Positions 7,811 to 32,806 of a DNA stretch of 64,000 nucleotides are shown one piece after another (the first letter of the stretch is position 1; every line of letters starts with the position of its first letter). The notes beneath the pieces are model-generated. The model was not told the DNA's origin. It saw nothing but the letters and a program-made list of their open reading frames with translations, and did no database searches. The position numbers were made by a program, and so were the translations under genes. This DNA is from Nitrospira tepida (GTDB lineage: Bacteria; Nitrospirota; Nitrospiria; Nitrospirales; Nitrospiraceae): positions 496,001-560,000 of the forward strand of contig NZ_OX365700.1 of NCBI RefSeq assembly GCF_947241125.1, written 5' to 3'.

Positions 7811-9100
7811 TTACAGCCAGGTGACCCGTTCCGCCGGTCGGACGTAGATCGGCTCCTCGACCTGGATCCGCGCCACTTCCTTCCCTGACTTGTTGAAGCC
7901 CAGCACGGTGTCGTTGTACATCTCGAACCGCTTCCCGTGGATCTGGGTCTCAAACACCTTCGGGCCCGGAATCACGTCGTACCGGAAGATGATCTGCTGG
8001 CTGGCCCGCCACAGTTGCAGCACCGCCAACAGCTCCCGGCTCGGCACCAGGTACTTCTCGATCGCATTGTCCACGCCCGGCCCGAACATCTGTCGGGCAT
8101 AGCCCCGCGGGCTCCACCGCGGCGGGATGTAGAACCCGTTCGGCTCCGTTCCCCACTGCGGGTACAGGGGCAGCGCCACCTGCTCCACCCGAATGGCGAA
8201 GTACAGCGGGTGCCACCGGTCCTCGGCCCACAGCCCGTCCTCGCCGATCCGCACCAGCGACTGCATCCGGATCTTCCCGACGCAGGCCGCCATACAGCGC
8301 GTTTCCATCGGCTCGCCGCCCGTCAAGGGGTCCTTCCCCTCGATCCGCGGATAGCAGGCAATGCACTTCTCCGAGACCCGGGTCGTGCCTCGGTACATCG
8401 GCTTCTTGAACGGGCACTGCTCGACACACTTCTTGTACCCGCGGCAGCGGTTCTGGTCGATCAGCACGATGCCGTCTTCCGGCCGCTTGTAGATGGCCTT
8501 CCGGGGACAGGCCGCGAGGCAGCCCGGGTACGTGCAGTGGTTGCAGATCCGCTGGAGATAGAAGAAGAACGTCTCATGCTCCGGCAGACTGCTGCCCGTC
8601 ATCTTCCAGGGTTCGTCCCGGGAGAAGCCGGTCTTGTCGATGCCTTCCACGAGGGCGCGCATCGAGGTAGCCGTGTCCTCGTAGATGTTGACGAACCGCC
8701 ACTCCTGGTCCGTGGGGATGTAGCCGATCGCCGCCTGGCCGACCTTGGCCCCGGCGTCGAAGATGGTCATCCCCTCGAACACCCCGTAGGGGGCATGGTG
8801 CTTGCGGCCGACCCGCACGTTCCACACCTGCCCGCCCGGGTTCACTTGCTCGATCAACTGCGTGATCTTCACGTCGTAGAACTGGGGATACCCGCCGTAG
8901 GGCTTGGTCTCCACGTTGTTCCACCACATGTACTCCTGGCCCTTCGAGAAGAGCCAGGTGGACTTGTCGGCCATCGAACAGGTCTGGCACGCCAAGCACC
9001 GGTTGATGTTGAACACGAAGGCGAACTGCCACTTCGGATGCCGCTCCTCGTAGGGATAGAGCATCTTGCGGCCCAGTTGCCAGTTATAGACTTCAGGCAT
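7811..9100 (-). CDS. nxrB: Nitrite oxidoreductase beta subunit (NxrB), copy 1
   Basis: 429 aa iron-sulfur electron-transfer subunit of NXR. Fourteen cysteines in four groups can be seen: C35/C38/C41; C186/C189/C194/C198; C219/C225/C229; and C246/C249/C269/C273. This is the layout of NarH/DMSO-reductase-type beta subunits with four clusters. No signal peptide is present, so it is expected to be exported together with the Tat-bearing NxrA. It starts 103 bp downstream of nxrA with a strong site (GGAGG, 6 bp from ATG). It differs from copy 2 by one residue (Lys166 here, Arg there) and a few silent changes. No nxrC or chaperone gene lies nearby. Confidence 0.97.
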   Translation of the reverse strand: MPEVYNWQLGRKMLYPYEERHPKWQFAFVFNINRCLACQTCSMADKSTWLFSKGQEYMWWNNVETKPYGGYPQFYDVKITQLIEQVNPGGQVWNVRVGRKHHAPYGVFEGMTIFDAGAKVGQAAIGYIPTDQEWRFVNIYEDTATSMRALVEGIDKTGFSRDEPWKMTGSSLPEHETFFFYLQRICNHCTYPGCLAACPRKAIYKRPEDGIVLIDQNRCRGYKKCVEQCPFKKPMYRGTTRVSEKCIACYPRIEGKDPLTGGEPMETRCMAACVGKIRMQSLVRIGEDGLWAEDRWHPLYFAIRVEQVALPLYPQWGTEPNGFYIPPRWSPRGYARQMFGPGVDNAIEKYLVPSRELLAVLQLWRASQQIIFRYDVIPGPKVFETQIHGKRFEMYNDTVLGFNKSGKEVARIQVEEPIYVRPAERVTWL

Positions 9101-9116
9101 GGTTTCCTCCGTAATC

Positions 9117-9200
9117 CGTCATTCGTCATTAGTCATTCGTACGGTCCGTCCGAACACCTCATCACTCTTGCAAGTGACGAGTGACGGTTGACGAATGACG
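9117..9200. repeat. Inverted heptamer repeat in the nxrA-nxrB spacer, copy 1
   Basis: CGTCATTCGTCA (9117-9128) pairs perfectly with TGACGAATGACG (9189-9200). Each arm is itself a run of degenerate 7-bp units (CGTCATT / TGACGAA). On the transcript this forms a long-armed stem-loop directly after the nxrA stop and before the nxrB ribosome-binding site. Confidence 0.75.
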
Positions 9201-9203
9201 CCA

Positions 9204-12200
9204 TTACACCTTGATCTTAATGTGCTCGCCCTTGAGCCACTTGATCATGAACTCGTTCTCCTGCCCGGGGGTAAAGCCGGTCCGGACCGGTTCCCACGGG
9301 CCGCGGGCGCCGATGCCGCCGTCTTCCGCCTTGGTGATGCGGATCAGACATTCCTTCGGCACCGTGTTGACCGCGTGGTGGTCAATCTCGAAGCCCCACT
9401 TCATCTTGAGCCCGTTGGCATGTTTGCCGGGCAAGCTGTCGGTCTGGTGCATCGGCATCAACCAGCTCCGCGTAAAGGACTGTTGGGCCCCGTAGCGGAA
9501 GTTGGACTGATAGCCGGTGTCCAGGGCGATGGCGCGGCCGTCCGGCCGTGTCTCGTGCCCTTTGACCGATTTCGCCGTCGACACGTACGGGGCGTGCTTC
9601 GCCATCGTGACGTGATACGGATAGGAGGGATTGTACTTGGCCCGGATCATCAAGCGGGCGACCTTGTAGTAGGGATCGGAGGGTTTCCAGCCGCGGTAGG
9701 GCCGGTCCACCGGGTTCCCGTCCACGTAGACATAGTCACCGTCGTTGATGCCCCGATCGCGCGCCGCCGCCGGGTTGATGTTCAACTGGTGCTCGCCGAC
9801 GCCCGGCGTCCGCTTGTCCATCCGGTACGGATCGCCGAAGTTCGACTCGTAGATCTGCACCCAGTCGTTCACCGACCACTGGCTGTGCACCCGGTGCCGG
9901 GTCTTGGGGGTGACGCAGTAGAACTGATACCCCTTCTCCCACAACGGGTTCGAGTAGCGCTTGATCTCCGCCCAGGGCAGCTTCACGTTGCGCACCTGCT
10001 TGTCGTCATGGTGCTGCGCCGTGATGGGGATGCCGTAGTCATCCGGGCGGATGTAGGGGTTCGTGGAGCAGATGGCGTTGGGCAAGTACGGCGTCGCCTC
10101 CGGGCCTTCCCGGTGGACGATGAAGTTCTCGCCGTATTCAATGGCCTCGGGCTCCGTCCGGTAGGATTCCAACCGGCCGGTCCGAGTCCATTGGGGCTTG
10201 CTCTCGTTGATTTCTTCCCACAGGGGATGCCGCGGATAGGTCCGGACCATGACCATCCAGCCCTTCTCCGACTTCAAGAGCACGTCCGCCGAATAGCCGT
10301 AGAACGTGGAGGACGCATCGAGGATGCGCTGCACATACACGTCCACCCGGTTGTCGTAGACGAACTTGAAGACATCGCGGAGTTTCGGTTCGCCGGTGAT
10401 GTCGGCGAGCTTGGTGGTAACCCCGGTGAAGGAGTCGAGGTCGTTGCGGGTGTCGTAGAGCGGACGGATGCCGCCCTTCCACACCTGCACCCAGGGATTG
10501 GACACCGTGCCCGTCATTTCGGGATAGGTGAACTCCATCCACGAATTGGAGGCGAAGGCCACGTCCGCATGATTCACGTCCGAGGTCATCTCAATATCCT
10601 GGGTCACGATACATTCGATGTTCGGATCGACGTTCTTGACCATGTCGTAGTGGTGCTTGGCATTGTTCAGAATGTTGACGTTGACGACCCAGCGGAGCTT
10701 GCTGGGGCTCGGCATATGGGTCTTGCCCGTGAACACCTTGCGCCCGTACTTGGGCGTGTTCACGATCAAGGCCGTGTCGCCGTGGTTCCAGTAGCCGGGC
10801 TCCTCGCCGTAGTAGTAGCCCCGATACTTGACTTCCTTGCCGTGGATATTGGGATCCGTGTTCATATGCCACGGATCTTCGCTCAAATACACGGCGGCGC
10901 CGGAGCCGGACCAGGGGGTCGCGTTCCAGATACCGACCTTGTAGTTGCCCGACCAGGTATGGCAGCCCGAGCCGAACTTCCCGACGTTGCCGGTGAGGAT
11001 CATCACCAACGCGGCGGCCCGGCCCATCTGCGTCATGTGGAAGTAGTGACAGACCCCCTCGCCGTTGTGGATGGCGGCGGGCTTGATGGTACCGGCGTCC
11101 CGCGCCCAGCGCACGATGAGGTCCTTGGGCGCCCGGTTGATCTGATGCACCGTGTCCAGGTCGTAGTCCTGCAAGTGCACCTGATAGAGCTGGTAGATCG
11201 GGGCCACGTCCACTTCCCGGCCGTTGAGCAGCTTGACGCGGTAGGTGCCCGTCAAGGCCGCATCCAGGCCGCTGTTCTGGAAGTGCCAGCCCACCTGCTC
11301 CCGGTGAATCGGCACGGCCTGGTTCTTCGACAGATCCCAGACCATGGTGCCGCCCAGGCGCTGGATGTACTCGGGTTTCAGGCCCTGCACCCGGCCGCTA
11401 TAGGCGTTGGAGAAGTCCGGGAATGCATAGTCCTTGACCACGTCGCGGGGATCGAGGTACTGGAGCGTATCCGTCCGGACCAAGATCGGCATGTCCGTGT
11501 AGGCCTTCAGGAAGTCGGTGTCTTGGAAGTTCTCATCGAAGATGATCTTACAGGCGCCGAGGAAGAGCGCGGAGTCGGTCTCCGGCCGGACCGGAATCCA
11601 GTAGTCGGCCCGGGTGGCCGTCGGGTTGTATTCCGGGGTGATCACGGCGATGCGGGCGCCGCGCTCAAGGCTTTCGAGTTTCCAGTGGGCCTCGGGCATC
11701 TTGTTCTCGACGAAGTTCTTGCCCCAACTGGTGTTGAACTTACAGAACCGCATGTCGGAGAGGTCCACGTCGCAGTTCTGAGTGCCGTTCCACCAAGGTT
11801 GGCTGGGGTCCTGGTCGCCGTGCCAGGTGTAGTTGTTCCAATAGCGGCCGCCCTGGGCTTGATCCGGGCTGACTTTCCGAATCCACGCGTCCAGCAACGG
11901 CAGCGTGTTGTTGTTGAACCGGGTGTTGCCGTGCTTGCCGATCAGGCCCAGGATCGGCATGCCGGCGCGGTGCTTGAAGCACCGGACGCCCGCGCCCTTC
12001 ATCATCTCAATCATCTCGGGCGGATAGCCCTGCTCGCGCAACCGCCGGGCGCCGGCCTCGCCGCTGTAGCGCGTGGCGATGACGACCATCGCTTTGGCGA
12101 CGTAGGTGAAGGCCGTGTCCCAGGAGACGCGCATCATGTCGTCCAGGTAGCGGCTGTCGAATTTGTACTTGCTCTTGGTCTCCGGGGTGAGCTCCGGGGA

Positions 12201-12641
12201 GCCGGCATCCATCCATTCCTTCCAGCCCTTGCGCATCAGGGGGCCTTTCAAGCGATAGGGGCCGTAGACGCGGCGGTGGAAGGTGAAGCCCTTCAGGCAC
12301 ATGCGGGGGTTGTGGGCGAAGGTCCCGCGGTTGCCGTAGAGGTCTTCGTAGGTCTGGTGGTCGTAGTTCTGCTCGACGCGCATGACGACGCCGTTGCGGA
12401 CGAAGGCGCGGATGCGGCAGCCGTGCGTGTCGTTGGGGGAACAGCACCAGGTGAAGGAGGAGTCATACCGGTACTGATCGTGGTAGACGCGCTCCCACGA
12501 GCGGTCCGGATAGTCGCCGAGGGGGTTGCCCACCTCGATGACCGGCTGGAGGGCCGTCAGCGCCAGCGCGCGATCGGCGATCGCCGCGGCCGCCACCGTC
12601 CCCGCCGTGACCTTCAGAAATTGTCGTCGTGATAAAAACAT
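9204..12641 (-). CDS. nxrA: Nitrite oxidoreductase alpha subunit (NxrA), copy 1
   Basis: 1145 aa catalytic molybdopterin subunit that oxidises nitrite to nitrate. The N-terminus is a twin-arginine signal (SRRQFLKV, residues 4-11, then an Ala-rich hydrophobic core), indicating export of the folded enzyme to the periplasm. Cysteines 66, 67, 75 and 115 lie where the N-terminal [4Fe-4S] cluster of the NarG branch is bound. Segment 275-296 (GDQDP...DVDLSD) aligns by eye with the NarG region that holds the Mo-ligand Asp. The ATG at 12641 follows GAGGAGG with an 8-nt spacer. It leads the nxrAB unit. Compared with copy 2, the first 294 and last ~325 residues are identical, while 29 changes fall between. 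Confidence 0.97.
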   Translation of the reverse strand: MFLSRRQFLKVTAGTVAAAAIADRALALTALQPVIEVGNPLGDYPDRSWERVYHDQYRYDSSFTWCCSPNDTHGCRIRAFVRNGVVMRVEQNYDHQTYEDLYGNRGTFAHNPRMCLKGFTFHRRVYGPYRLKGPLMRKGWKEWMDAGSPELTPETKSKYKFDSRYLDDMMRVSWDTAFTYVAKAMVVIATRYSGEAGARRLREQGYPPEMIEMMKGAGVRCFKHRAGMPILGLIGKHGNTRFNNNTLPLLDAWIRKVSPDQAQGGRYWNNYTWHGDQDPSQPWWNGTQNCDVDLSDMRFCKFNTSWGKNFVENKMPEAHWKLESLERGARIAVITPEYNPTATRADYWIPVRPETDSALFLGACKIIFDENFQDTDFLKAYTDMPILVRTDTLQYLDPRDVVKDYAFPDFSNAYSGRVQGLKPEYIQRLGGTMVWDLSKNQAVPIHREQVGWHFQNSGLDAALTGTYRVKLLNGREVDVAPIYQLYQVHLQDYDLDTVHQINRAPKDLIVRWARDAGTIKPAAIHNGEGVCHYFHMTQMGRAAALVMILTGNVGKFGSGCHTWSGNYKVGIWNATPWSGSGAAVYLSEDPWHMNTDPNIHGKEVKYRGYYYGEEPGYWNHGDTALIVNTPKYGRKVFTGKTHMPSPSKLRWVVNVNILNNAKHHYDMVKNVDPNIECIVTQDIEMTSDVNHADVAFASNSWMEFTYPEMTGTVSNPWVQVWKGGIRPLYDTRNDLDSFTGVTTKLADITGEPKLRDVFKFVYDNRVDVYVQRILDASSTFYGYSADVLLKSEKGWMVMVRTYPRHPLWEEINESKPQWTRTGRLESYRTEPEAIEYGENFIVHREGPEATPYLPNAICSTNPYIRPDDYGIPITAQHHDDKQVRNVKLPWAEIKRYSNPLWEKGYQFYCVTPKTRHRVHSQWSVNDWVQIYESNFGDPYRMDKRTPGVGEHQLNINPAAARDRGINDGDYVYVDGNPVDRPYRGWKPSDPYYKVARLMIRAKYNPSYPYHVTMAKHAPYVSTAKSVKGHETRPDGRAIALDTGYQSNFRYGAQQSFTRSWLMPMHQTDSLPGKHANGLKMKWGFEIDHHAVNTVPKECLIRITKAEDGGIGARGPWEPVRTGFTPGQENEFMIKWLKGEHIKIKV

Positions 12642-13109: not shown

Positions 13110-14534
13110 TCAGTCTCCTTCCTTCTTAAGGTAGCGGCGCATGATCTCATGGAAATACGGGCGGGGTAGCCCGGCCTCCGACGCGGCATGGGTCACGTTG
13201 CCTTTATGCGCGTTGAGCTTCGCCTGAATGTACTGGCGGTTGAACTCCTCCAGGATCTTTTCCTTGGCTTTGGCGTACGGCAGATGGAGATGTTCTTCAA
13301 TGATCGATCCGGAGCTGTGGCGGTCCGCATGAAGCAAATTGACTACCTGGCTTCGGTCAATCGTGTCCTGCTTGGCGAGCATCACGGCCCGCTCGATGAC
13401 GTTCCGCAGCTCGCGTACATTTCCCGGCCAGGGGTAGGCGATCAGCTCGGTTAACGCGGCGGGGAGGATGTCGGCAATCGGCTTGCCGAATTCCTTTGTA
13501 TAGCGTCCCAGGAAGTGCCGAGCCAGCGACGGGATGTCTTCTTTACGCTCCCGCAGCGGCGGCACATGAATCACCATGACATTCAATCGGAAAAACAGAT
13601 CCTTTCTGAATTCACCCCGCTTGACCTTAGCGGCCAAATCCTGATTGGTCGCCGCGACGAAGCGGACGGCGAGTTTTCGCTGCTCGGTGCTGCCGACCGC
13701 CCGGACTTCGCGTTCTTCCAGCACGCGGAGCAATTTGGCCTGAAGGTTCAACGGAAGATCGCCGATCTCGTCGAGGAAGACGGTTCCCCGGCTGCCCAGC
13801 TCGATGAGACCCTGCTTGTCGGACACCGCCCCGGTGAAGGCTCCGCGCACATGCCCGAAGAGTTCACTCTCGGCGATGCCTTCAGTGAAGGTGGTGCAGT
13901 CTACGACCTGAAAGGGGCCGTCGGCCTCATCGCTCCGTTCATGGATCGCTTTGGCCAAGAGTTCCTTGCCCGTGCCCGTTTCTCCGATGATCAGGGTCGT
14001 GGCGGGGACTTTTGCCACGGTATCGATCATGGCTTTCACTTTCTGCATGGCGGGGCCGTTGCCAATCAGGTTTCGAAAGGGAAGGGTCGCGGGATCAGCG
14101 ACCTCGCTCCCTCGCTGTTCCGCGAAGATTTCGGAGATCCGCATGGCACGGTGAATCCGCATGGCCAGGTCGAACTTCTCGAAGGGCTTCACGATATAGT
14201 CGAACGCCCCGTGGTGCACCGCTTCAATAGCAGTGTCCACGGCGTCCACCCAACTGACCATGATGACTGGGATGTGGCGGTTCATGTCGTGAATGCGCTG
14301 CAGCAGTTCGAGCCCGCTCATCCCGGGCAGACGGATGTCCGTGATCACGAGATCGATCGGGCGCTCGGCAAGGATCTTGAGCCCTCCCTCCGCGCGGGCG
14401 GCCACGACCAATTCGACCTGCTCGGCGTCGTGACGGGGGAGCTCATGTTCGACGGCGCGAAGAAACATTTCCACGTCGCCGGCGTTATCCTCCACCAACA
14501 AGATCGTAAAGGGTTTGCTTTTGACGAGACTCAT
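13110..14534 (-). CDS. Sigma-54-dependent response regulator (NtrC family) of the NXR locus
   Basis: 474 aa from the ATG at 14534, chosen because it overlaps the kinase stop (ATGA, 14531-14534). Receiver domain 8-125 (phospho-acceptor D66 in VITDIRLPG, Lys116). AAA+ domain with Walker A GETGTGKE (184-191) and the sigma-54 contact loop GAFTGA (231-236). C-terminal Fis-type helix-turn-helix (GNVTHAASEAGLPRPYFHE). All parts needed to activate a sigma-54 promoter are intact. It is translationally coupled to the sensor kinase upstream and sits between two nxrAB units, so NXR transcription is the obvious candidate target, by inference. Confidence 0.93.
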   Translation of the reverse strand: MSLVKSKPFTILLVEDNAGDVEMFLRAVEHELPRHDAEQVELVVAARAEGGLKILAERPIDLVITDIRLPGMSGLELLQRIHDMNRHIPVIMVSWVDAVDTAIEAVHHGAFDYIVKPFEKFDLAMRIHRAMRISEIFAEQRGSEVADPATLPFRNLIGNGPAMQKVKAMIDTVAKVPATTLIIGETGTGKELLAKAIHERSDEADGPFQVVDCTTFTEGIAESELFGHVRGAFTGAVSDKQGLIELGSRGTVFLDEIGDLPLNLQAKLLRVLEEREVRAVGSTEQRKLAVRFVAATNQDLAAKVKRGEFRKDLFFRLNVMVIHVPPLRERKEDIPSLARHFLGRYTKEFGKPIADILPAALTELIAYPWPGNVRELRNVIERAVMLAKQDTIDRSQVVNLLHADRHSSGSIIEEHLHLPYAKAKEKILEEFNRQYIQAKLNAHKGNVTHAASEAGLPRPYFHEIMRRYLKKEGD

Positions 14535-16618
14535 GAATTCACCTGTCTGGGCCGGAGCGCCTCCTGCCCCGTTGTCGCAGGCCACGGGACGGCCTGTCCG
14601 GCTTGTTCGGGATGGATCTGCACGGCCGGCTCCTCTTCGAGCACGGCCACGGTCGGAAGTTGCACATAAAAGGTGCTGCCCTTCCCTGGAATGGTATCGA
14701 CGAACACACGCCCCTTGTATTGTTCAACCACGGTTTTCACGATGACGAGACCGATTCCGGCTCCGGAGATCTCCGGACCAGCCAGCCTGGCGAACGGACT
14801 GAAGATATGCTCCGTCATGGCAGGATCCATCCCCATGCCGTTGTCACGGACATAGATCAAACGGGCTTGATTCGACAGCATGGTGCCGATTTCGACATGC
14901 GGCTCCGATTGCCCTCCCATGTATTTGATCGCATTGCTGACGAGGTTTTCCAGGACTTGCTTCACATGGATGCGGCGACAGGCGAGTCGCGGAAGGTCTG
15001 GTTCCACGGTGATCCGGACTCCTCGCGTCTGAATCGCGCCGTCGAGCAGTTGCAACACTTCGCCCACGGCCTCGGACACATCGACGGTTTCCAGGTCGAG
15101 CGGCTCATGCGTGAGCCTGGCCAGGTCCAGGGTCCGCTCGGCCAATTGAGCCAGGTCCCGCCCCTCCTTCTTGATCCAGGAAAGGTACCGTTGCCCATGT
15201 TCGCCTATAAGCGAGCCATAATCCTGTTCGATCCAGGAGGCGAACTCGGCCACGCGCCCCGCCGGCGCCTTCACTTCGTGCGTCAAGGCGGCCACCTTGT
15301 GCTCCACCGCCGCCAGTTTGGCGGATAGGGCGTTCGTTTCGGATTCCAGTTCGTGGAAGAGCCGGACGTTTTCCAAGGTGACGGCGGCGTAGGAGGCAAA
15401 CTGCTCCGCCAACCCCACGTCCCACGTCGTAAACTGGCGAGTCTGGGTGGTGCTGCACAACATCAACACGCCAAGACAGTGTTGATGCGCCATTAACGGG
15501 ACGGCCAGCAGGCTTTTTGCTCCATAGACGTCGCGAATCTTGACCAATGTATCGGCATGGTCCGACAAGACGGGAACAATCACCGGCGCGCGTTCTTCGT
15601 AGGCTTGATTGGAGAACGGGGTTTCCTCCGTCAACCAGATCTCTTTCTGTTTCGCGTCGAACATCGCACCGGAAATGGCGTCAAGGACCCAACAGTCCAT
15701 CGATGGATGGCGGACCAGCAGAGCCGCAAAATCGGCGCGGGAGACAGCCGCGGCATGATCCACAATGCCGTGAAGCACCTGATCGAGATCTCCATGGCCG
15801 AGAGCGGCCACCTCTCGACAGACGGAATGGAGCGCTTGCAGCTCCTCGATTTTGTGTCGGACCTTGTGCGCCATGGTTTCCAAGGCAGTGCCGACCCTGC
15901 CCAATTCGTCTTCCCGGGAAAGCGACGCGACGTCCATGAAATCGCCGGAGGCGAGCCGCTCAGCTTTGCCGACGAGCTGGTTGAGTGGAGCCTGCAGCGT
16001 CCGTCTCAAGACCAGGACGGTGAGGCCGATGATGCAAAGGGACAGCATCAAAAACATGAGCAAGAGGCGATTGAGCGCCTGAATGCGGTCGCCCGCATCC
16101 TGCTCCAGCATGTGCACCATCTGATTGAGATCGAGTTTGAGGTCGTCCAGATCGTGCTGGTACTGCTGTTCAAGAAGGTGGAGATCCGTGGGATTGTCGT
16201 GAAGGGCTCGTTCGAGCGTGGGCCTGAGCTGGAGTTCCCATCGGTCCTTGACTGTTTGGAGTTGTCGTGCCAGCTCAGGATTGGAGGAAGCGATCGCGTT
16301 GTGGCGCGCGTTCCCATATTGGAGACCCTCAAGCACTTGATTCCACTTTTGGATTTCTTCGCGCATGGCGGCGCGTGTCGTCTGGCGCATGGCCGGATCG
16401 CGAAGCTGGGACAAGAGAAGGGCAAGCTTGTAGACTCGCATCCGCTGCCCTCCGGCTTCGTTAATGGCGGCGCTGGTTCCGATGAGTTGTCCTGCAAGGT
16501 GCCATGTGGTGAGAAGGCATCCTGCCGTTGTGAGAATCAGGAGGAGGAAGACTGCCCCGACCTTTGAGACGATCGAGCGCGACAAGTGTCGAAATATAGC
16601 CGAACGTGCGGAATGCAT
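14531..16618 (-). CDS. Sensor histidine kinase with NarX/PilJ-like input domain
   Basis: 695 aa from the ATG at 16618; an in-frame ATG at 16702 would add 28 residues, and neither has a strong ribosome-binding site. Layout: TM1 (about 21-43); periplasmic helical domain beginning with INEAGGQRMRVYKLALLLSQ (52-71), which resembles the P-box that binds nitrate/nitrite in NarX/NarQ; TM2 (about 185-204); HAMP (205-257); GAF-like domain (270-422); HisKA with H447 in LTHEVKAP; and a HATPase with N-box NLVSNAIKYM and glycine boxes. The input domain and the position between two nitrite oxidoreductase operons suggest it senses nitrite or nitrate. Its partner is the coupled regulator gene downstream. Confidence 0.9.
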   Translation of the reverse strand: MHSARSAIFRHLSRSIVSKVGAVFLLLILTTAGCLLTTWHLAGQLIGTSAAINEAGGQRMRVYKLALLLSQLRDPAMRQTTRAAMREEIQKWNQVLEGLQYGNARHNAIASSNPELARQLQTVKDRWELQLRPTLERALHDNPTDLHLLEQQYQHDLDDLKLDLNQMVHMLEQDAGDRIQALNRLLLMFLMLSLCIIGLTVLVLRRTLQAPLNQLVGKAERLASGDFMDVASLSREDELGRVGTALETMAHKVRHKIEELQALHSVCREVAALGHGDLDQVLHGIVDHAAAVSRADFAALLVRHPSMDCWVLDAISGAMFDAKQKEIWLTEETPFSNQAYEERAPVIVPVLSDHADTLVKIRDVYGAKSLLAVPLMAHQHCLGVLMLCSTTQTRQFTTWDVGLAEQFASYAAVTLENVRLFHELESETNALSAKLAAVEHKVAALTHEVKAPAGRVAEFASWIEQDYGSLIGEHGQRYLSWIKKEGRDLAQLAERTLDLARLTHEPLDLETVDVSEAVGEVLQLLDGAIQTRGVRITVEPDLPRLACRRIHVKQVLENLVSNAIKYMGGQSEPHVEIGTMLSNQARLIYVRDNGMGMDPAMTEHIFSPFARLAGPEISGAGIGLVIVKTVVEQYKGRVFVDTIPGKGSTFYVQLPTVAVLEEEPAVQIHPEQAGQAVPWPATTGQEALRPRQVNS

Positions 16619-16836
16619 GGATGATGGGGTCCTAGTGGATCGAGGGAAACCTGACAGACTGTGCCGCGTGGCCTGTCCAGCAAGGTACGCCCGTCCTTTC
16701 ATTCAAACGTTTTAGGGTACATAAACATACCGGGACGTTGCATGCAAGTCTTGGGGCCGTGGGAGGTATGGATGTTGAGGTTGAAAAGAGGGAAATTGAC
16801 GAAATGGCGTGCGAATTGGTTTGGGTGAAAGAAGAA
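16619..16836. other. Upstream region of the sensor-kinase gene
   Basis: Non-coding apart from a possible 28-codon N-terminal extension of the kinase (16619-16702). No consensus promoter could be assigned with confidence. Confidence 0.4.
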
Positions 16837-16973: not shown

Positions 16974-18263
16974 TTACAACCAGGTGACCCGTTCTGCCGG
17001 TCGGACGTAGATCGGCTCCTCGACCTGGATCCGCGCCACTTCCTTCCCCGACTTGTTGAAGCCCAGCACGGTGTCGTTGTACATCTCGAACCGCTTCCCG
17101 TGGATCTGGGTCTCAAACACCTTCGGGCCCGGAATCACGTCGTACCGGAAGATGATCTGCTGGCTGGCCCGCCACAGTTGCAGCACCGCCAACAGCTCCC
17201 GGCTCGGCACCAGGTACTTCTCGATCGCATTGTCCACGCCCGGCCCGAACATCTGCCGGGCATAGCCCCGCGGGCTCCACCGCGGCGGGATGTAGAACCC
17301 GTTCGGCTCCGTTCCCCACTGCGGGTACAGGGGCAGCGCCACCTGCTCCACCCGAATGGCGAAGTACAGCGGGTGCCACCGGTCCTCGGCCCACAGCCCA
17401 TCCTCGCCGATCCGCACCAGCGACTGCATCCGGATCTTCCCGACGCAGGCCGCCATACAGCGCGTTTCCATCGGCTCGCCGCCCGTCAAGGGGTCCTTCC
17501 CCTCGATCCGCGGATAGCAGGCAATGCACTTCTCCGAGACCCGGGTCGTGCCCCGGTACATCGGCTTCTTGAACGGGCACTGCTCGACACACTTCTTGTA
17601 CCCGCGGCAGCGGTTCTGGTCGATCAGCACGATGCCGTCTTCCGGCCGCTTGTAGATGGCCTTCCGGGGACAGGCCGCGAGGCAGCCCGGGTACGTGCAG
17701 TGGTTGCAGATCCGCTGGAGATAGAAGAAGAACGTCTCATGCTCCGGCAGACTGCTGCCCGTCATGCGCCAGGGTTCATCTCGGGAGAAGCCGGTCTTGT
17801 CGATGCCTTCCACGAGGGCGCGCATCGAGGTAGCCGTGTCCTCGTAGATGTTGACGAACCGCCACTCCTGGTCCGTGGGGATGTAGCCGATCGCCGCCTG
17901 GCCGACCTTGGCCCCGGCGTCGAAGATGGTCATCCCCTCGAACACCCCGTAGGGGGCATGGTGCTTGCGGCCGACCCGCACGTTCCACACCTGCCCGCCC
18001 GGGTTCACTTGCTCGATCAACTGCGTGATCTTCACGTCGTAGAACTGGGGATACCCGCCGTAGGGCTTGGTCTCCACGTTGTTCCACCACATGTACTCCT
18101 GGCCCTTCGAGAAGAGCCAGGTGGACTTGTCGGCCATCGAACAGGTCTGGCACGCCAAGCACCGGTTGATGTTGAACACGAAGGCGAACTGCCACTTCGG
18201 ATGCCGCTCCTCGTAGGGATAGAGCATCTTGCGGCCCAGTTGCCAGTTATAGACTTCAGGCAT
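16974..18263 (-). CDS. nxrB: Nitrite oxidoreductase beta subunit (NxrB), copy 2
   Basis: 429 aa, with the same fourteen Fe-S cysteines as copy 1. The only protein difference seen is Arg166 in place of Lys166. Nucleotide differences are a handful of silent changes plus a short cluster around the residue-166 codon (near 17764-17780). It follows nxrA2 with the same 103-bp spacer and ribosome-binding site. The near identity shows recent duplication or ongoing gene conversion. Confidence 0.97.
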   Translation of the reverse strand: MPEVYNWQLGRKMLYPYEERHPKWQFAFVFNINRCLACQTCSMADKSTWLFSKGQEYMWWNNVETKPYGGYPQFYDVKITQLIEQVNPGGQVWNVRVGRKHHAPYGVFEGMTIFDAGAKVGQAAIGYIPTDQEWRFVNIYEDTATSMRALVEGIDKTGFSRDEPWRMTGSSLPEHETFFFYLQRICNHCTYPGCLAACPRKAIYKRPEDGIVLIDQNRCRGYKKCVEQCPFKKPMYRGTTRVSEKCIACYPRIEGKDPLTGGEPMETRCMAACVGKIRMQSLVRIGEDGLWAEDRWHPLYFAIRVEQVALPLYPQWGTEPNGFYIPPRWSPRGYARQMFGPGVDNAIEKYLVPSRELLAVLQLWRASQQIIFRYDVIPGPKVFETQIHGKRFEMYNDTVLGFNKSGKEVARIQVEEPIYVRPAERVTWL

Positions 18264-18279
18264 GGTTTCCTCCGTAATC

Positions 18280-18363
18280 CGTCATTCGTCATTAGTCATT
18301 CGTACGGTCCGTCCGAACACCTCATCACTCTTGCAAGTGACGAGTGACGGTTGACGAATGACG
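18280..18363. repeat. Inverted heptamer repeat in the nxrA-nxrB spacer, copy 2
   Basis: Same sequence as 9117-9200: 12-bp perfect arms (18280-18291 and 18352-18363) built of CGTCATT/TGACGAA units. It was duplicated with the operon. Confidence 0.75.
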
Positions 18364-18366
18364 CCA

Positions 18367-21300
18367 TTACACCTTGATCTTAATGTGCTCGCCCTTGAGC
18401 CACTTGATCATGAACTCGTTCTCCTGCCCGGGGGTAAAGCCGGTCCGGACCGGTTCCCACGGGCCGCGGGCGCCGATGCCGCCGTCTTCCGCCTTGGTGA
18501 TGCGGATCAGACATTCCTTCGGCACCGTGTTGACCGCGTGGTGGTCAATCTCGAAGCCCCACTTCATCTTGAGCCCGTTGGCATGTTTGCCGGGCAAGCT
18601 GTCGGTCTGGTGCATCGGCATCAACCAGCTCCGCGTAAAGGACTGTTGGGCCCCGTAGCGGAAGTTGGACTGATAGCCGGTGTCCAGGGCGATGGCGCGG
18701 CCGTCCGGCCGTGTCTCGTGCCCTTTGACCGATTTCGCCGTCGACACGTACGGGGCGTGCTTCGCCATCGTGACGTGATACGGATAGGAGGGATTGTACT
18801 TGGCCCGGATCATCAAGCGGGCGACCTTGTAGTAGGGATCGGAGGGTTTCCAGCCGCGGTAGGGCCGGTCCACCGGGTTCCCGTCCACGTAGACATAGTC
18901 ACCGTCGTTGATGCCCCGATCGCGCGCCGCCGCCGGGTTGATGTTCAACTGGTGCTCGCCGACGCCCGGCGTCCGCTTGTCCATCCGGTACGGATCGCCG
19001 AAGTTCGACTCGTAGATCTGCACCCAGTCGTTCACCGACCACTGGCTGTGCACCCGGTGCCGGGTCTTGGGGGTGACGCAGTAGAACTGATACCCCTTCT
19101 CCCACAACGGGTTCGAGTAGCGCTTGATCTCCGCCCAGGGCAGCTTCACGTTGCGCACCTGCTTGTCGTCATGGTGCTGCGCCGTGATGGGGATGCCGTA
19201 GTCATCCGGGCGGATGTAGGGGTTCGTGGAGCAGATGGCGTTGGGCAAGTACGGCGTCGCCTCCGGGCCTTCCCGGTGGACGATGAAGTTCTCGCCGTAT
19301 TCAATGGCCTCGGGCTCCGTCCGGTAGGATTCCAACCGGCCGGACCGGGTCCACATCGGCTTGCTCTCGTTGACTTCCTCCCACAGGGGATGCCGCGGAT
19401 AGGTCCGGACCATGACCATCCAGCCCTTCTCCGACTTCAAGAGCACGTCCGCCGAATAGCCGTAGAACGTGGAGGACGCATCGAGAACACGCTGCACATA
19501 CACGTCCACCCGGTTGTCGTAGACGAACTTGAAGACCTGCCGCATCAGTTGCTCGCCGGTGATGTCGGCGAGCTTGGTGGTAACCCCGGTGAAGGTATCG
19601 ATGTCGTTGCGGGTGTCGTAGAGCGGACGGATGCCGCCCTTCCACACCTGCACCCAGGGATTGGACACCGTGCCCGTCATTTCGGGATAGGTGAACTCCA
19701 TCCACGAATTGGAGGCGAAGGCCACGTCCGCATGGTTCACGTCCGAGGTCATCTCAATATCCTGGGTCACGATACATTCGATGTTCGGATCGACGTTCTT
19801 GACCATGTCGTAGTGGTGCTTGGAATTGTTTAACACGTTGACGTTGACCACCCAGCGGAGCTTGCTGGGGCTCGGCATATGGGTCTTGCCCGTGAACACC
19901 TTGCGCCCGTACTTGGGCGTGTTCACGATCAAGGCCGTGTCGCCGTGGTTCCAGTAGCCCACTTCCTCGCCGTAGTAGTAGCCCCGATACTTGACTTCCT
20001 TGCCGTGGATGCTGGGATCTGTGTTGGTGTGCCACGGATCTTCGCTCAAATACACGGCGGCGCCGGAGCCGGACCAGGGGGCCGCGTTCCAGATGCCGAC
20101 CTTGTAGTTGCCCGACCAGGTATGACAGCCGGCGCCGAACTTCCCGACGTTGCCGCCGAGGATCATCACCAACGCGGCACCCCGGCCCATCTGCGTCATG
20201 TGGAAGTAGTGGCAGACCCCCTCGCCGTTGTGGATGGCGGCGGGCTTGATGGTACCGGCGTCCCGCGCCCAGCGCACGATGAGGTCCTTGGGCGCCCGGT
20301 TGATCTGATGCACCGTGTCCAGGTCGTAGTCCTGCAAGTGCACCTGATAGAGCTGGTAGATCGGGGCCACGTCCACTTCCCGTCCGTTGAGCAGCTTGAC
20401 GCGGTAGGTGCCCGTCAAGGCCACATCCAGACCGCTGCTCAGGAAGTGCCAGCCCACCTGCTCCCGGTGAATCGGCACGGCCTGGTTCTTCGACAGATCC
20501 CAGACCATGCAAGCGCCCAGGCGTTGGATGTACTCGGGTTTCAGGCCCTGCACCCGGCCGCTATAGGCGTTGGAGAAGTCCGGGAATGCATAGTCCTTGA
20601 CCACGTCGCGGGGATCGAGGTACTGGAGCGTATCCGTCCGGACCAACAGCGGCATGTCCGTGTAGGCCTTCAGGAAGTCGGTGTCTTGGAAGTTCTCATC
20701 GAGGATGATCTTACAGGCCCCCAGGAAGAGGGCGTTGTCGGTCTCCGGCCGGACCGGAATCCAGTAGTCGGCCCGGGTGGCCGTCGGATTGTATTCCGGG
20801 GTGATCACGGCGATGCGAGCGCCGCGTTCGATTGACTCCAACTTCCAGTGCGCTTCCGGCATCTTGTTCTCGACGAAGTTCTTGCCCCAACTGGTGTTGA
20901 ACTTACAGAACCGCATGTCGGCCAAGTCCACGTCGCAGTTCTGAGTGCCGTTCCACCAAGGTTGGCTGGGGTCCTGGTCGCCGTGCCAGGTGTAGTTGTT
21001 CCAATAGCGGCCGCCCTGGGCTTGATCCGGGCTGACTTTCCGAATCCACGCGTCCAGCAACGGCAGCGTGTTGTTGTTGAACCGGGTGTTGCCGTGCTTG
21101 CCGATCAAGCCCAGGATCGGCATGCCGGCGCGGTGCTTGAAGCACCGGACGCCCGCGCCCTTCATCATCTCAATCATCTCGGGCGGATAGCCCTGCTCGC
21201 GCAACCGCCGGGCGCCGGCCTCGCCGCTGTAGCGCGTGGCGATGACGACCATCGCCTTGGCGACGTAGGTGAAGGCCGTGTCCCAGGAGACGCGCATCAT

Positions 21301-21804
21301 GTCGTCCAGGTAGCGGCTGTCGAATTTGTACTTGCTCTTGGTCTCCGGGGTGAGCTCCGGGGAGCCGGCATCCATCCATTCCTTCCAGCCCTTGCGCATC
21401 AGGGGGCCTTTCAAGCGATAGGGGCCGTAGACGCGGCGGTGGAAGGTGAAGCCCTTCAGGCACATGCGGGGGTTGTGGGCGAAGGTCCCGCGGTTGCCGT
21501 AGAGGTCTTCGTAGGTCTGGTGGTCGTAGTTCTGCTCGACGCGCATGACGACGCCGTTGCGGACGAAGGCGCGGATGCGGCAGCCGTGCGTGTCGTTGGG
21601 GGAACAGCACCAGGTGAAGGAGGAGTCATACCGGTACTGATCGTGGTAGACGCGCTCCCACGAGCGGTCCGGATAGTCGCCGAGGGGGTTGCCCACCTCG
21701 ATGACCGGCTGGAGGGCCGTCAGCGCCAGCGCGCGATCGGCGATCGCCGCGGCCGCCACCGTCCCCGCCGTGACCTTCAGAAATTGTCGTCGTGATAGAA
21801 ACAT
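18367..21804 (-). CDS. nxrA: Nitrite oxidoreductase alpha subunit (NxrA), copy 2
   Basis: 1145 aa. The ATG at 21804 was preferred over an in-frame GTG at 21813 because GAGGAGG sits 8 nt upstream of the ATG, as in copy 1, and would overlap the GTG. Tat signal (SRRQFLKV), cluster cysteines 66/67/75/115 and the presumed Mo-binding segment match copy 1. The 29 differences all lie between residues 295 and about 820; examples are Ser295 to Ala and the PKLRD segment to QLMRQ. The upstream DNA is unrelated to that of copy 1, so the two operons are probably driven by different promoters. Confidence 0.97.
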   Translation of the reverse strand: MFLSRRQFLKVTAGTVAAAAIADRALALTALQPVIEVGNPLGDYPDRSWERVYHDQYRYDSSFTWCCSPNDTHGCRIRAFVRNGVVMRVEQNYDHQTYEDLYGNRGTFAHNPRMCLKGFTFHRRVYGPYRLKGPLMRKGWKEWMDAGSPELTPETKSKYKFDSRYLDDMMRVSWDTAFTYVAKAMVVIATRYSGEAGARRLREQGYPPEMIEMMKGAGVRCFKHRAGMPILGLIGKHGNTRFNNNTLPLLDAWIRKVSPDQAQGGRYWNNYTWHGDQDPSQPWWNGTQNCDVDLADMRFCKFNTSWGKNFVENKMPEAHWKLESIERGARIAVITPEYNPTATRADYWIPVRPETDNALFLGACKIILDENFQDTDFLKAYTDMPLLVRTDTLQYLDPRDVVKDYAFPDFSNAYSGRVQGLKPEYIQRLGACMVWDLSKNQAVPIHREQVGWHFLSSGLDVALTGTYRVKLLNGREVDVAPIYQLYQVHLQDYDLDTVHQINRAPKDLIVRWARDAGTIKPAAIHNGEGVCHYFHMTQMGRGAALVMILGGNVGKFGAGCHTWSGNYKVGIWNAAPWSGSGAAVYLSEDPWHTNTDPSIHGKEVKYRGYYYGEEVGYWNHGDTALIVNTPKYGRKVFTGKTHMPSPSKLRWVVNVNVLNNSKHHYDMVKNVDPNIECIVTQDIEMTSDVNHADVAFASNSWMEFTYPEMTGTVSNPWVQVWKGGIRPLYDTRNDIDTFTGVTTKLADITGEQLMRQVFKFVYDNRVDVYVQRVLDASSTFYGYSADVLLKSEKGWMVMVRTYPRHPLWEEVNESKPMWTRSGRLESYRTEPEAIEYGENFIVHREGPEATPYLPNAICSTNPYIRPDDYGIPITAQHHDDKQVRNVKLPWAEIKRYSNPLWEKGYQFYCVTPKTRHRVHSQWSVNDWVQIYESNFGDPYRMDKRTPGVGEHQLNINPAAARDRGINDGDYVYVDGNPVDRPYRGWKPSDPYYKVARLMIRAKYNPSYPYHVTMAKHAPYVSTAKSVKGHETRPDGRAIALDTGYQSNFRYGAQQSFTRSWLMPMHQTDSLPGKHANGLKMKWGFEIDHHAVNTVPKECLIRITKAEDGGIGARGPWEPVRTGFTPGQENEFMIKWLKGEHIKIKV

Positions 21805-22513
21805 TGAGTGCACCTCCTCAAGTTGTGAGCTGACTTCTCAGCCTGACTGCACCAAATGACTCGCACCACCGAACTTCTTTTCCCACCTCCTTCCTTTGTG
21901 AAGCATTTCCTCCTTACCACTTGATGTGCCCTGTATTTCCGACCAGTAAGAGCATGTTTCGATAACAAGAAACACAAAAGACCCCCTCAAAACAGAGCGG
22001 TAAAAAGCAACTATCAAACCATGAGGGATGTATTTTTTTAACTTATGGAATTGATGAGAAAAAAATATTATTTCGACGGAGGGAAGGAAGAAATGAGGCA
22101 GAACGGACGTTACTTATCTGTAACGGTTTGCCATGTCGGTTTAAGGATATGCATAGAAAGGTCAATAAAAACAGAAAGGTGCGAGAGTTTATTATGCGTT
22201 ACCAGTTGGGCGGGTCTATCCAGCAAGGTAACGCTGCTGGGGAGCGGAGTGGCGCGGAAAAAAGGACTGAGCTATCCCGCATTATTCACGAGTTGCCATG
22301 AACGCCTGGCGTTCACCCGTGCATGATGAGCATGCGCGATCCGACGCATGCCGTGGCCCGGTTCACGTCGGGGAACATTGGTACCGCGAGTCCGCCACGA
22401 GTGTGATGTGGGCGCTTCCGGCACCCCGCATGGTGGCTGCGAGCACGCAAAGCAGAGTCGTGATGAGGAGGCGCCTCCGGGCCACGGCCGTTCACCATCT
22501 GGAGGAGGATGCC
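21805..22513. other. Upstream region of nxrA2 and flank of a degraded insertion sequence
   Basis: About 700 bp with no supported gene. 21950-22190 is clearly more AT-rich than the rest of the window (A- and T-runs near 22030-22075), as expected for a promoter/leader region or foreign DNA. From about 22260 the GC content rises again into the transposase remnant. An open frame at 22045-22326 has no ribosome-binding site or recognisable product. Confidence 0.5.
22299..22315. repeat. 17-bp palindrome near the transposase remnant
   Basis: TGAACGCC-T-GGCGTTCA, perfect 8-bp arms around one base. It may be an operator or part of the insertion-sequence end. Confidence 0.5.
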
Positions 22514-23550
22514 ATGGAGCGACGTATCGAGCGTGGTGCAGGCTTGGATGACCCCAAAGAGACGGTGGCGGGGTGTGTCCGCGTGCCAGGGCCGACGGGA
22601 GCGCGGGAGCAGCAGGGGCGCACGTTGGGCACAATGACGGCGGACCTGTTGGCCTTGCGCGATTGGCTGGCGGCCCACCAGGTCACCGACGTGGCCATGC
22701 GCAACGTCCCGGGGCGGAAGACCGATGGGCAGGACTGTGTCTGGATCGCGCAACTGCTGGAGCCTGGGCTGCTGCGGGGCAGCTTCGTGGCCCCCGGCAC
22801 CGATCCGGGAGTTACGGGACCTCACGCGGTATCGCGAGGGCCTGATCCAGGAGCGTGGCCGCGAGACGCAGCGGCTTGAGAAGGGGCGGGAGGAGGCGGG
22901 GGTGAAGCTGGCGTCGGTCGCCACGGATATCCTGGGGGCTCGGGCCGAGCGATGCTGGAGGCGCTCGTGCACGGGACCACCGATCCCGACACGCTGGCCG
23001 AGCTGGCCAAAAGCAGACTGCGTGCCAAGCTGCCGGCGTTGCGGGCGGCCTGGCCGGGCGCTTTCGGGGGCATCATGGGTTTCTGGTCAGCGAGCTCTTG
23101 GCGCCTCTGGATGACCTCGAAGAGGCGATCGCACGTTTGAGCCAGCAGATCGAGGAGCACCTCCGCCCTTCCGCGACCCTGGTCCAGCCGTTGGATGCGA
23201 TCCCGGGGGTGAACCAGCGCGCGATTGAAGGGATCATGGCCGAGATCGGCGTCGACCTGTCGCCGTTTCCCTCGGATTGGCATCTCAGCAGTTGGGCTGG
23301 GATCTGTCCTGGCCATCATGAGAGCGCAGGCAAGCGCCAGAGCGGCAAGACCCGTAAGGGCAACTGCTAGCTTCGGGCCGCGCTGATTGGAGCGGCCTTT
23401 GGGGCCATTCGGGGGAAAGACAGCCGGTTGGCCGCTCGCTATCGCCGCATCAGGCGGCATCGGGGACACAAGAACGCGGTGAAGGCCCAGGACCGGGTGC
23501 GGCGGAAATTCTGGCGCTTGCTGCATCGCCACAAGCCGCCGTCGTGGCCG
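22514..23550 (+). pseudogene. Broken IS110-family transposase
   Basis: Starts at ATG 22514 after GGAGGAGG. Fragments in three frames reconstruct an IS110-type DEDD transposase: an N-terminal region with AGLDDPKETVAGCVRVPGP, GRKTDGQDCVWIAQLLE, RELRDLTRYREGLIQER, the transposase_20 part DAIPGVNQRAIEGIMAEIG and WAGICPGHHESAGKRQSGKT. Frameshifts occur near 22800, 22940 and 23080. A TAG near 23369 replaces the expected Trp codon of the motif after KTRKGN. In addition, Val-Ala-Met is joined directly to RNVPGRKTD. In intact relatives a segment of roughly 25-30 residues containing the second catalytic acid (MESTGVYW) lies there, so an in-frame deletion removed it. It cannot be active. Confidence 0.88.
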
Positions 23551-24200: not shown

Positions 24201-24275
24201 GCGGGAATAGCTCAGTGGTAGAGCATCGCCTTGCCAAGGCGAGGGTCGCGGGTTCAAATCCCGTTTCCCGCTCCA
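24201..24275 (+). tRNA. tRNA-Gly (anticodon GCC)
   Basis: Complete cloverleaf: acceptor GCGGGAA/TTCCCGC, D-arm AGCTCAGTGGTAGAGC, anticodon stem TCGCC/GGCGA with loop TTGCCAA (anticodon GCC at 24233-24235), T-arm GCGGGTTCAAATCCCGT, discriminator T and encoded CCA. It decodes GGC/GGU. It lies 130 bp from the MITE-like element and near the transposase remnant. Confidence 0.97.
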
Positions 24276-32390: not shown

Positions 32391-32474
32391 CGTACCCCTG
32401 CCGATAGCGACCCTCACGCGAACTGAACCGCTTGAAATGGACCCCGACGGTTCGGTAAGATCTTCTCTCTCTTT

Positions 32475-32496: not shown

Positions 32497-32524
32497 TTTA
32501 TTCAACGCAGAGGAGGGTAGAGGT

Positions 32525-32701
32525 ATGTTCCGTAGGATGTTGGGTTTCACCGGCCTCGCACTCTTGAACGCATCCCTGGCTGTCGCCAATGCCCCGACGG
32601 ATGGTCCACCGGACTACAGCGGCATCACCGGCATGTACTATGTCTTGATCGGCATGGTCTTGGCCTACGGGGTGTACGACACCTTCTTCAAGAAGTCCTA
32701 A
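32525..32701 (+). CDS. Small exported/membrane protein, 58 aa
   Basis: Reads MFRRMLGFTGLALLNASLA at the N-terminus, an apparent signal segment with a likely cleavage after ALA-type residues (VANA). A short linker (PTDGPPDYSG) and one transmembrane helix (ITGMYYVLIGMVLAYGVYD) follow, ending in FFKKS. Start ATG at 32525 is preceded by GAGGAGGG, a strong ribosome-binding site. Codon use fits the neighbours. The size and single C-terminal helix recall accessory subunits of respiratory complexes (CcoQ-like size), but there is no sequence match I can name. It stands alone between the SWIM gene and the convergent esterase gene. Confidence 0.75.
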   Translation: MFRRMLGFTGLALLNASLAVANAPTDGPPDYSGITGMYYVLIGMVLAYGVYDTFFKKS

Positions 32702-32806
32702 GTCGTTCTTCACGCCATCGGACTTTCATTGTCATAACGCCTGCGGGGGCGCGGCGCCTTGTGGCGCGCATTCTCGAAGGGTGGGATGCGGGGGTGTGTC
32801 TGTTTC

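Follow-up and report, generated by a model that had tools for sequence, protein, structure and literature searches.

A conserved 58-residue single-span membrane protein precursor in Nitrospirales, tentatively an accessory subunit of a membrane complex

Positions 32525-32701 (forward strand) of the DNA analyzed here, a 64,000-nucleotide stretch of the Nitrospira tepida genome (the window: G000:C1:496001-560000, of a genome that is one contig of 4.73 Mb), are a genuine gene. Its translation product, MFRRMLGFTGLALLNASLAVANAPTDGPPDYSGITGMYYVLIGMVLAYGVYDTFFKKS, has 58 amino acids and is, by prediction, the precursor of a single-pass membrane protein that we tentatively regard, with confidence that stops a little short of even, as an accessory or structural subunit of a Nitrospirales membrane complex, docking by one face of its helix. 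The median dN/dS of its orthologues is 0.18 (quartiles 0.13-0.28; 422 pairs with pS of 0.05-0.5, drawn from 110 distinct coding sequences), and this value, the constancy of the ChaN-like and esterase neighbours and a recurring promoter pattern, all referred to below, place the frame far beyond chance. The ribosome-binding site, GAGGAGGG (32510-32517, forward strand), lies 7 nt 5' of the ATG; Shine-Dalgarno-like sites also precede the orthologues' starts, which were chosen partly by such sites. The original prediction, of a real gene with a strong ribosome-binding site in DNA of Nitrospira origin, is borne out in its first two parts and supported in the third. Its short length and the absence of a significant family match might have argued that the frame is no gene at all, but conservation, dN/dS, a signal-peptidase-type site and the promoter have already refuted that notion, and we accord it practically no credence. 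An antisense ORF of 71 codons (32498-32713, reverse strand) is not conserved and was rejected as coding, since antisense frames are mostly closed across the orthologues (the three are open in 47, 1 and 0 of the 110 coding sequences).

As far as genome sequences can establish such things, the gene, the promoter-like element that precedes it, its conservation and its distribution are established. A search for homologues in the Nitrospirota had been proposed as the check, with failure to find any as the refutation, and the homologues are there: a profile built from 17 sequences (A1, threshold E up to 0.05) has a match, to the gene itself or to a relative, in 222 of the 235 genomes of the order, paralogue-only matches included. 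By family, the matches are 169/175 in f1, 7/8 in f2, 46/48 in f3 and 0/4 in f4. Family f1 is taken to be Nitrospiraceae, with N. moscoviensis and N. defluvii in it, f4 is probably UBA2166, and f2 and f3 would be NS-4 and UBA8639; the names of the last three rest on the presence of NxrB and on the four UBA2166 genomes counted in the accessible part of PMC12342949. In a phylum sample of 295 genomes, 94 match A1 at E up to 0.001, every one of them inside the order. With the protein alone as query and E up to 1 allowed, 58 of 61 relatives gave a match, though matches close to that limit are noise. A tight peptide pattern, scanned against 84,980 species genomes, gave 111 confirmed loci, and the 80 of these that are listed bear Nitrospira-type names, bar one titled uncultured Nitrosospira that is probably a mislabelled record. 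Apparent absences in G240, G056, G429 and G220 look like assembly gaps, since the ChaN neighbour is also missing in the first three and in G220 lies ~1.1 kb from contig base 1; an A1 match is also absent from G332, G360, G369 and G390 (f1) and from G043 (f2).

The comparison set of 148 sequences (the window's and those of 147 loci) yielded 146 orthologues at E 1e-12 or better and from these the 110 distinct coding sequences, which are of the f1/f3 type, with starts picked partly by Shine-Dalgarno score and the f2 members left aside. Residues A21, N22, Y31, G33, Y38, I42, L46, G49, D52 and F54 are invariant among them. The part of the protein that would survive processing is the more constrained, with a median pN of 0.064 and pS of 0.43, against 0.138 and 0.34 for the signal part. 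Searches of Pfam, NCBIfam, PHROGs and PDB gave no significant family match, the weak ones (E 0.02-1) being to unrelated families; the best PDB hits with the two alignments (E 0.92 and 0.56) are unrelated proteins, and the best PHROGs hit (E 0.038) is a family of unknown function. Rfam gave nothing across the locus, and our literature searches turned up no description of the gene. The family is new, though of a familiar sort, that of small single-span membrane proteins. PMC6606698, in its accessible part, describes NITMOv2_2496 as exported and highly transcribed, with no function assigned to it; we considered this protein as a member and rejected it, since by rough interpolation its tag number is a misfit to the positions of the three N. 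moscoviensis members, 0.258, 1.856 and 1.888 Mb. The small gene itself occupies 258,019-258,207 in N. moscoviensis and 309,076-309,249 in N. defluvii.

A predicted sigma-70-type promoter, TTGAAA-18 nt-TAAGAT, occupies 32432-32461 on the forward strand (the scan found 1, with 0.2 expected). Paired hexamers of the CTTG[CA] and TANNAT types, at near-constant spacing, lie 5' of 95 of the 108 orthologues that have at least 110 bases of upstream sequence, versus 0.6% of mononucleotide shuffles. A tighter version of the pattern occurs once in each of four of the eight genomes searched, always 5' of the small gene, and is absent from the other four, the window's own among them. The sequence is best read as specifying a single-gene transcription unit, and the notion of a shared operon with the neighbouring ChaN-like and SWIM-like genes was rejected, the small gene having a putative promoter of its own.

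The export signal and the topology are predictions. The signal peptide should comprise residues 1-21 (32525-32587, forward strand), with cleavage predicted between A21 and N22: all 110 distinct f1/f3-type orthologues have an [AV]-x-A site (A or V at -3, A at -1) followed by Asn22, and the net charge of their n-regions averages +1.75. What follows, residues 22-58 (32588-32698, forward strand), would be the mature protein, invariant at columns 31, 33, 38, 42, 46, 49, 52 and 54, in which a putatively periplasmic PDYSG stub precedes a transmembrane helix at approximately residues 37-55 (32633-32689, forward strand). AlphaFold2 places helices at residues 2-21 and 32-56 (mean pLDDT 76.6, rising to 93 over residues 41-50), so that the signal segment and the single transmembrane helix of the original prediction are both upheld, as predictions. 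Over its best 19 residues the second helix has a hydropathy of 1.35-1.46, modest for a free-standing helix. Its conservation is one-sided: the moment at 100 degrees picks out Y38, Y39, I42, L46, G49 and T53, and the helical period has a permutation p of 0.010-0.038, varying with the stretch that is taken. The features of a type I single-span protein (AxA-type site, one further helix, positive cytoplasmic end) are all present, by prediction only, and an outside N-terminus with an inside C-terminus is the simplest arrangement given the terminal Lys-Lys. Divergent f2 members, such as VKGMWTFLQTLLVFLSTVAVAFANEPKAGEGGGNPYEAMYMIWYVLIGIVLAWGVYDSFFRPID, share this layout, the post-cleavage Asn becoming Glu or Gln in several of them; their common plan makes one helix look ancestral.

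The mechanism that we propose starts with a Sec-exported precursor, which signal peptidase I would cut after residue 21, leaving ~37 residues. The one helix would hold the mature protein in the inner membrane, with a periplasmic N-terminus and a cytoplasmic Lys-Lys tail, and its conserved face (Y38, I42, L46, G49, T53) would dock on a larger membrane complex. The periplasmic DYSG stub may also touch that complex, which would be one common to the Nitrospirales that bear nitrite oxidoreductase (NXR), and plausibly a part of the nitrite-to-oxygen electron transport chain. CydX, CcoQ and PetN are small single-span subunits of respiratory complexes. Size and single helix are as in our protein, but its signal peptide is predicted to be cleavable and its gene does not share an operon with large-subunit genes; profile searches of Pfam, NCBIfam and PDB brought up no significant match to a curated family of the CydX/CcoQ kind, nor are large respiratory subunits encoded beside it at the loci examined. 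The original suggestion of a respiratory-complex subunit, for a terminal oxidase or a bc-type complex, is no more than a reasonable guess.

Many genomes also hold a relative of 74-79 amino acids bearing a second hydrophobic stretch (YVAAPxxxxGLYMMLP); the window genome's own copy is at G000:C1:3591969-3592187. This two-helix paralogue resembles the small protein in its signal peptide, its GYxGI stub and its YYxxxxxxLxYGxYDxFxKK helix, and differs from it in its length of ~74-79 residues, its second predicted hydrophobic stretch and its patchy occurrence. The paralogue profile recovers the window gene from among the window's frames at E 7.5e-12; outside the order it finds only G162 and G249, weakly (E 0.003-0.005, within frames that encode 368 and 384 amino acids), which we take as noise, and no match to it was found in N. 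defluvii. Its Pfam-identified neighbours are mostly unrelated housekeeping genes (topoisomerase VI, DapB, RF3, a TPP enzyme, a tRNA synthetase). Among the matches listed, 23 f1 genomes reach A1 with no E better than 1e-14. Of these, 14 belong to g10, which has 32 genomes, and their scores are paralogue-like. In six of these 14 (G036, G203, G232, G246, G248 and G278; the other eight lie outside the sample) the A1 match is the two-helix paralogue, NxrB is present and no full one-helix copy is recognizable. The esterase-adjacent site of seven such low-scoring g10 genomes holds a decayed relic in G203 and no recognizable copy in the other six, and in three further genomes it holds a frame-broken copy (G010) or none (G016, G043). 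In G181 the small gene is ~136 kb from the esterase, and the esterase-adjacent position alone therefore proves nothing. The two-helix paralogue may replace the one-helix protein in some lineages. The relic (G203:C1:29090-29197, reverse strand; L286) belongs to a 1.8-Mb genome that has kept the two-helix paralogue and NxrB; the broken copy (G010:C56, L288) is split over two frames near the YGxYDTF motif, by a sequencing error or as a young pseudogene.

That the protein belongs to NXR itself, as its membrane anchor or as a small intrinsic subunit, we consider quite unlikely. What speaks for it is partly distribution: the four f4 genomes match neither NxrB nor the small gene, and f1-f3 have both. 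(In the accessible part of PMC12342949, UBA2166, with four genomes, is the one family of the order that lacks NXR, and 140 genes mark the NXR-bearing families; having four genomes and no NxrB match, f4 is probably that family.) NxrB itself was found in 169 of the 235 genomes (7/8 in f2, 0/4 in f4), a low count that we put down to the loss of multi-copy genes from draft assemblies; the f2 genome G043 has NxrB and no small-gene match. Such co-distribution is weak evidence, because the ChaN-like neighbour is likewise absent from f4 (0/4) and gain by a whole clade amounts to one event. Synteny also speaks for it: among 90 orthologue rows of the matches listed, a choice leaning to genomes with a listed nxrB, 49 have both genes on one contig, and in 36 of these 49 nxrB is 8.3-28.8 kb away, upstream and divergent (in the other 13 it is >30 kb off, and in N. 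defluvii 2.9 Mb by linear distance). In G024 (L065:7820-12754, reverse strand) the two-helix paralogue directly follows nxrAB at the 3' side and in the same direction, with a DUF5069 gene next, and in G237 it is ~10 kb from nxrB; G024's other contigs end at nxr copies. Against this, no family member turned up downstream of nxrB in 40 further regions, 2 of which are truncated by contig ends, so that membership in an NXR operon was rejected and the G024 adjacency may be coincidence. The codon-usage scores of the window gene (0.476) and its N. moscoviensis counterpart (0.427) are also below those of nxr (0.77-0.80), on weights that derive from nxr and so favour it, and the g10 genomes that have NxrB yet only the paralogue, one with a relic, argue the same way. 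The more ambitious thought is that this is the missing small membrane-side subunit by which a periplasmic, membrane-associated NXR system is tied to its partners in respiration, and that the NXR-bearing Nitrospirales acquired it at their base along with nitrite oxidation; we regard it as a long shot. The alternative NxrC proteins, candidate NXR anchors in the accessible part of PMC6606698, are likewise exported, with one transmembrane helix, and occur in NXR-bearing Nitrospira, but their mature forms have masses of 27 kDa and, in the case of the dihaem cytochrome, 64 kDa, while the small protein would have ~4 kDa when mature and has no known domain.

Two further roles come from the immediate neighbourhood and from the small protein's own features. 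Of 27 orthologue loci (18 f1, 9 f3), 26 have a ChaN-like gene on the upstream side and 26 have a GDSL esterase gene, of opposite direction, on the downstream side; genes for an ABC ATPase and a permease usually come after the esterase, and the space between the flanking genes is taken up by a SWIM-like coiled-coil gene (match E 0.03, under its cut-off) or by other small genes. The protein might accordingly work with the haem-binding ChaN-like protein, or else with the esterase/ABC system, in the handling of haem or of envelope lipids. That ChaN shares the f4 absence fits this proposal, but of the eight f2 genomes five have the homologue and ChaN on separate contigs and two, G037 and G049, gave no ChaN match, and the distant esterase of G181 has already been mentioned; we think the proposal unlikely. 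(The f2 homologue is located elsewhere: eight of nine loci lie beside a gene that, recognized by eye, looks to be of the VOC/glyoxalase type.) AcrZ- and MgtS-like proteins bind a transporter or protease and tune or stabilize it, and a small regulatory membrane peptide of that sort, without any structural part in electron transport, is a possibility to be reckoned with, if not a probable one. Its own putative promoter and single-gene unit, its single conserved helix face, the conserved seat near the ABC ATPase/permease pair and codon usage that is ordinary (380 stretches of 58 codons from other genes have a median close to the 0.476 of the window gene) would all suit such a regulator. Conditional regulators are usually patchier in distribution, and near order-wide retention and very tight sequence stand against it, as does the promoter reading, by which the ABC genes fall outside the small gene's transcription unit.

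The accessory-subunit reading, which we tentatively prefer, draws on the retention, across the order, of the gene or of a relative, the stronger constraint on the mature than on the signal part, the signal-peptidase-type site in 110/110 combined with one-sided helix conservation, the dedicated promoter, the joint f4 absence with NxrB together with the position of nxrB in 36/49, and the six g10 genomes that hold the two-helix paralogue where a full one-helix copy is not recognized. On the other side of the ledger, no operon with respiratory genes was found at the loci examined, where the neighbours are ChaN-like, SWIM-like, GDSL esterase and ABC-transporter genes; the f4 absence is shared by ChaN and so comes down to a single event in one clade; codon usage is unremarkable; paralogue-like matches are all that 14 of the 32 g10 genomes have, with a relic in G203 despite its NxrB; and the paralogue's neighbours are mostly housekeeping genes. 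Nitrospirales are major nitrite oxidizers. In the accessible part of PMC6606698, the attachment of NXR to the membrane and its connection with the respiratory chain are presented as an open question. A widely kept, tightly conserved and lineage-restricted peptide, small enough to slip easily through annotation and proteomics, is a concrete target for partner studies.

The window has other features of note in its nxr region. It holds two nxrAB pairs (7811-12641 and 16974-21813, reverse strand), ~9 kb apart, whose NxrB proteins differ at one residue; alpha is of the molybdopterin type, the first with a Tat signal match, and beta of the 4Fe-4S type. A third nxrB is at G000:C1:3961904-3963190. The interval between the pairs contains genes at 13110-14585, for a response regulator of the sigma-54 type, and at 14531-16702, for a histidine kinase of the GAF/PilJ kind. 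A broken IS110-family transposase remnant (22725-23367, forward strand; PF02371 at E 1.2e-10, PF01548 at E 0.00035, under cut-off) sits between nxrA and a TgpA-type transglutaminase gene, near tRNA-Gly (24201-24275).
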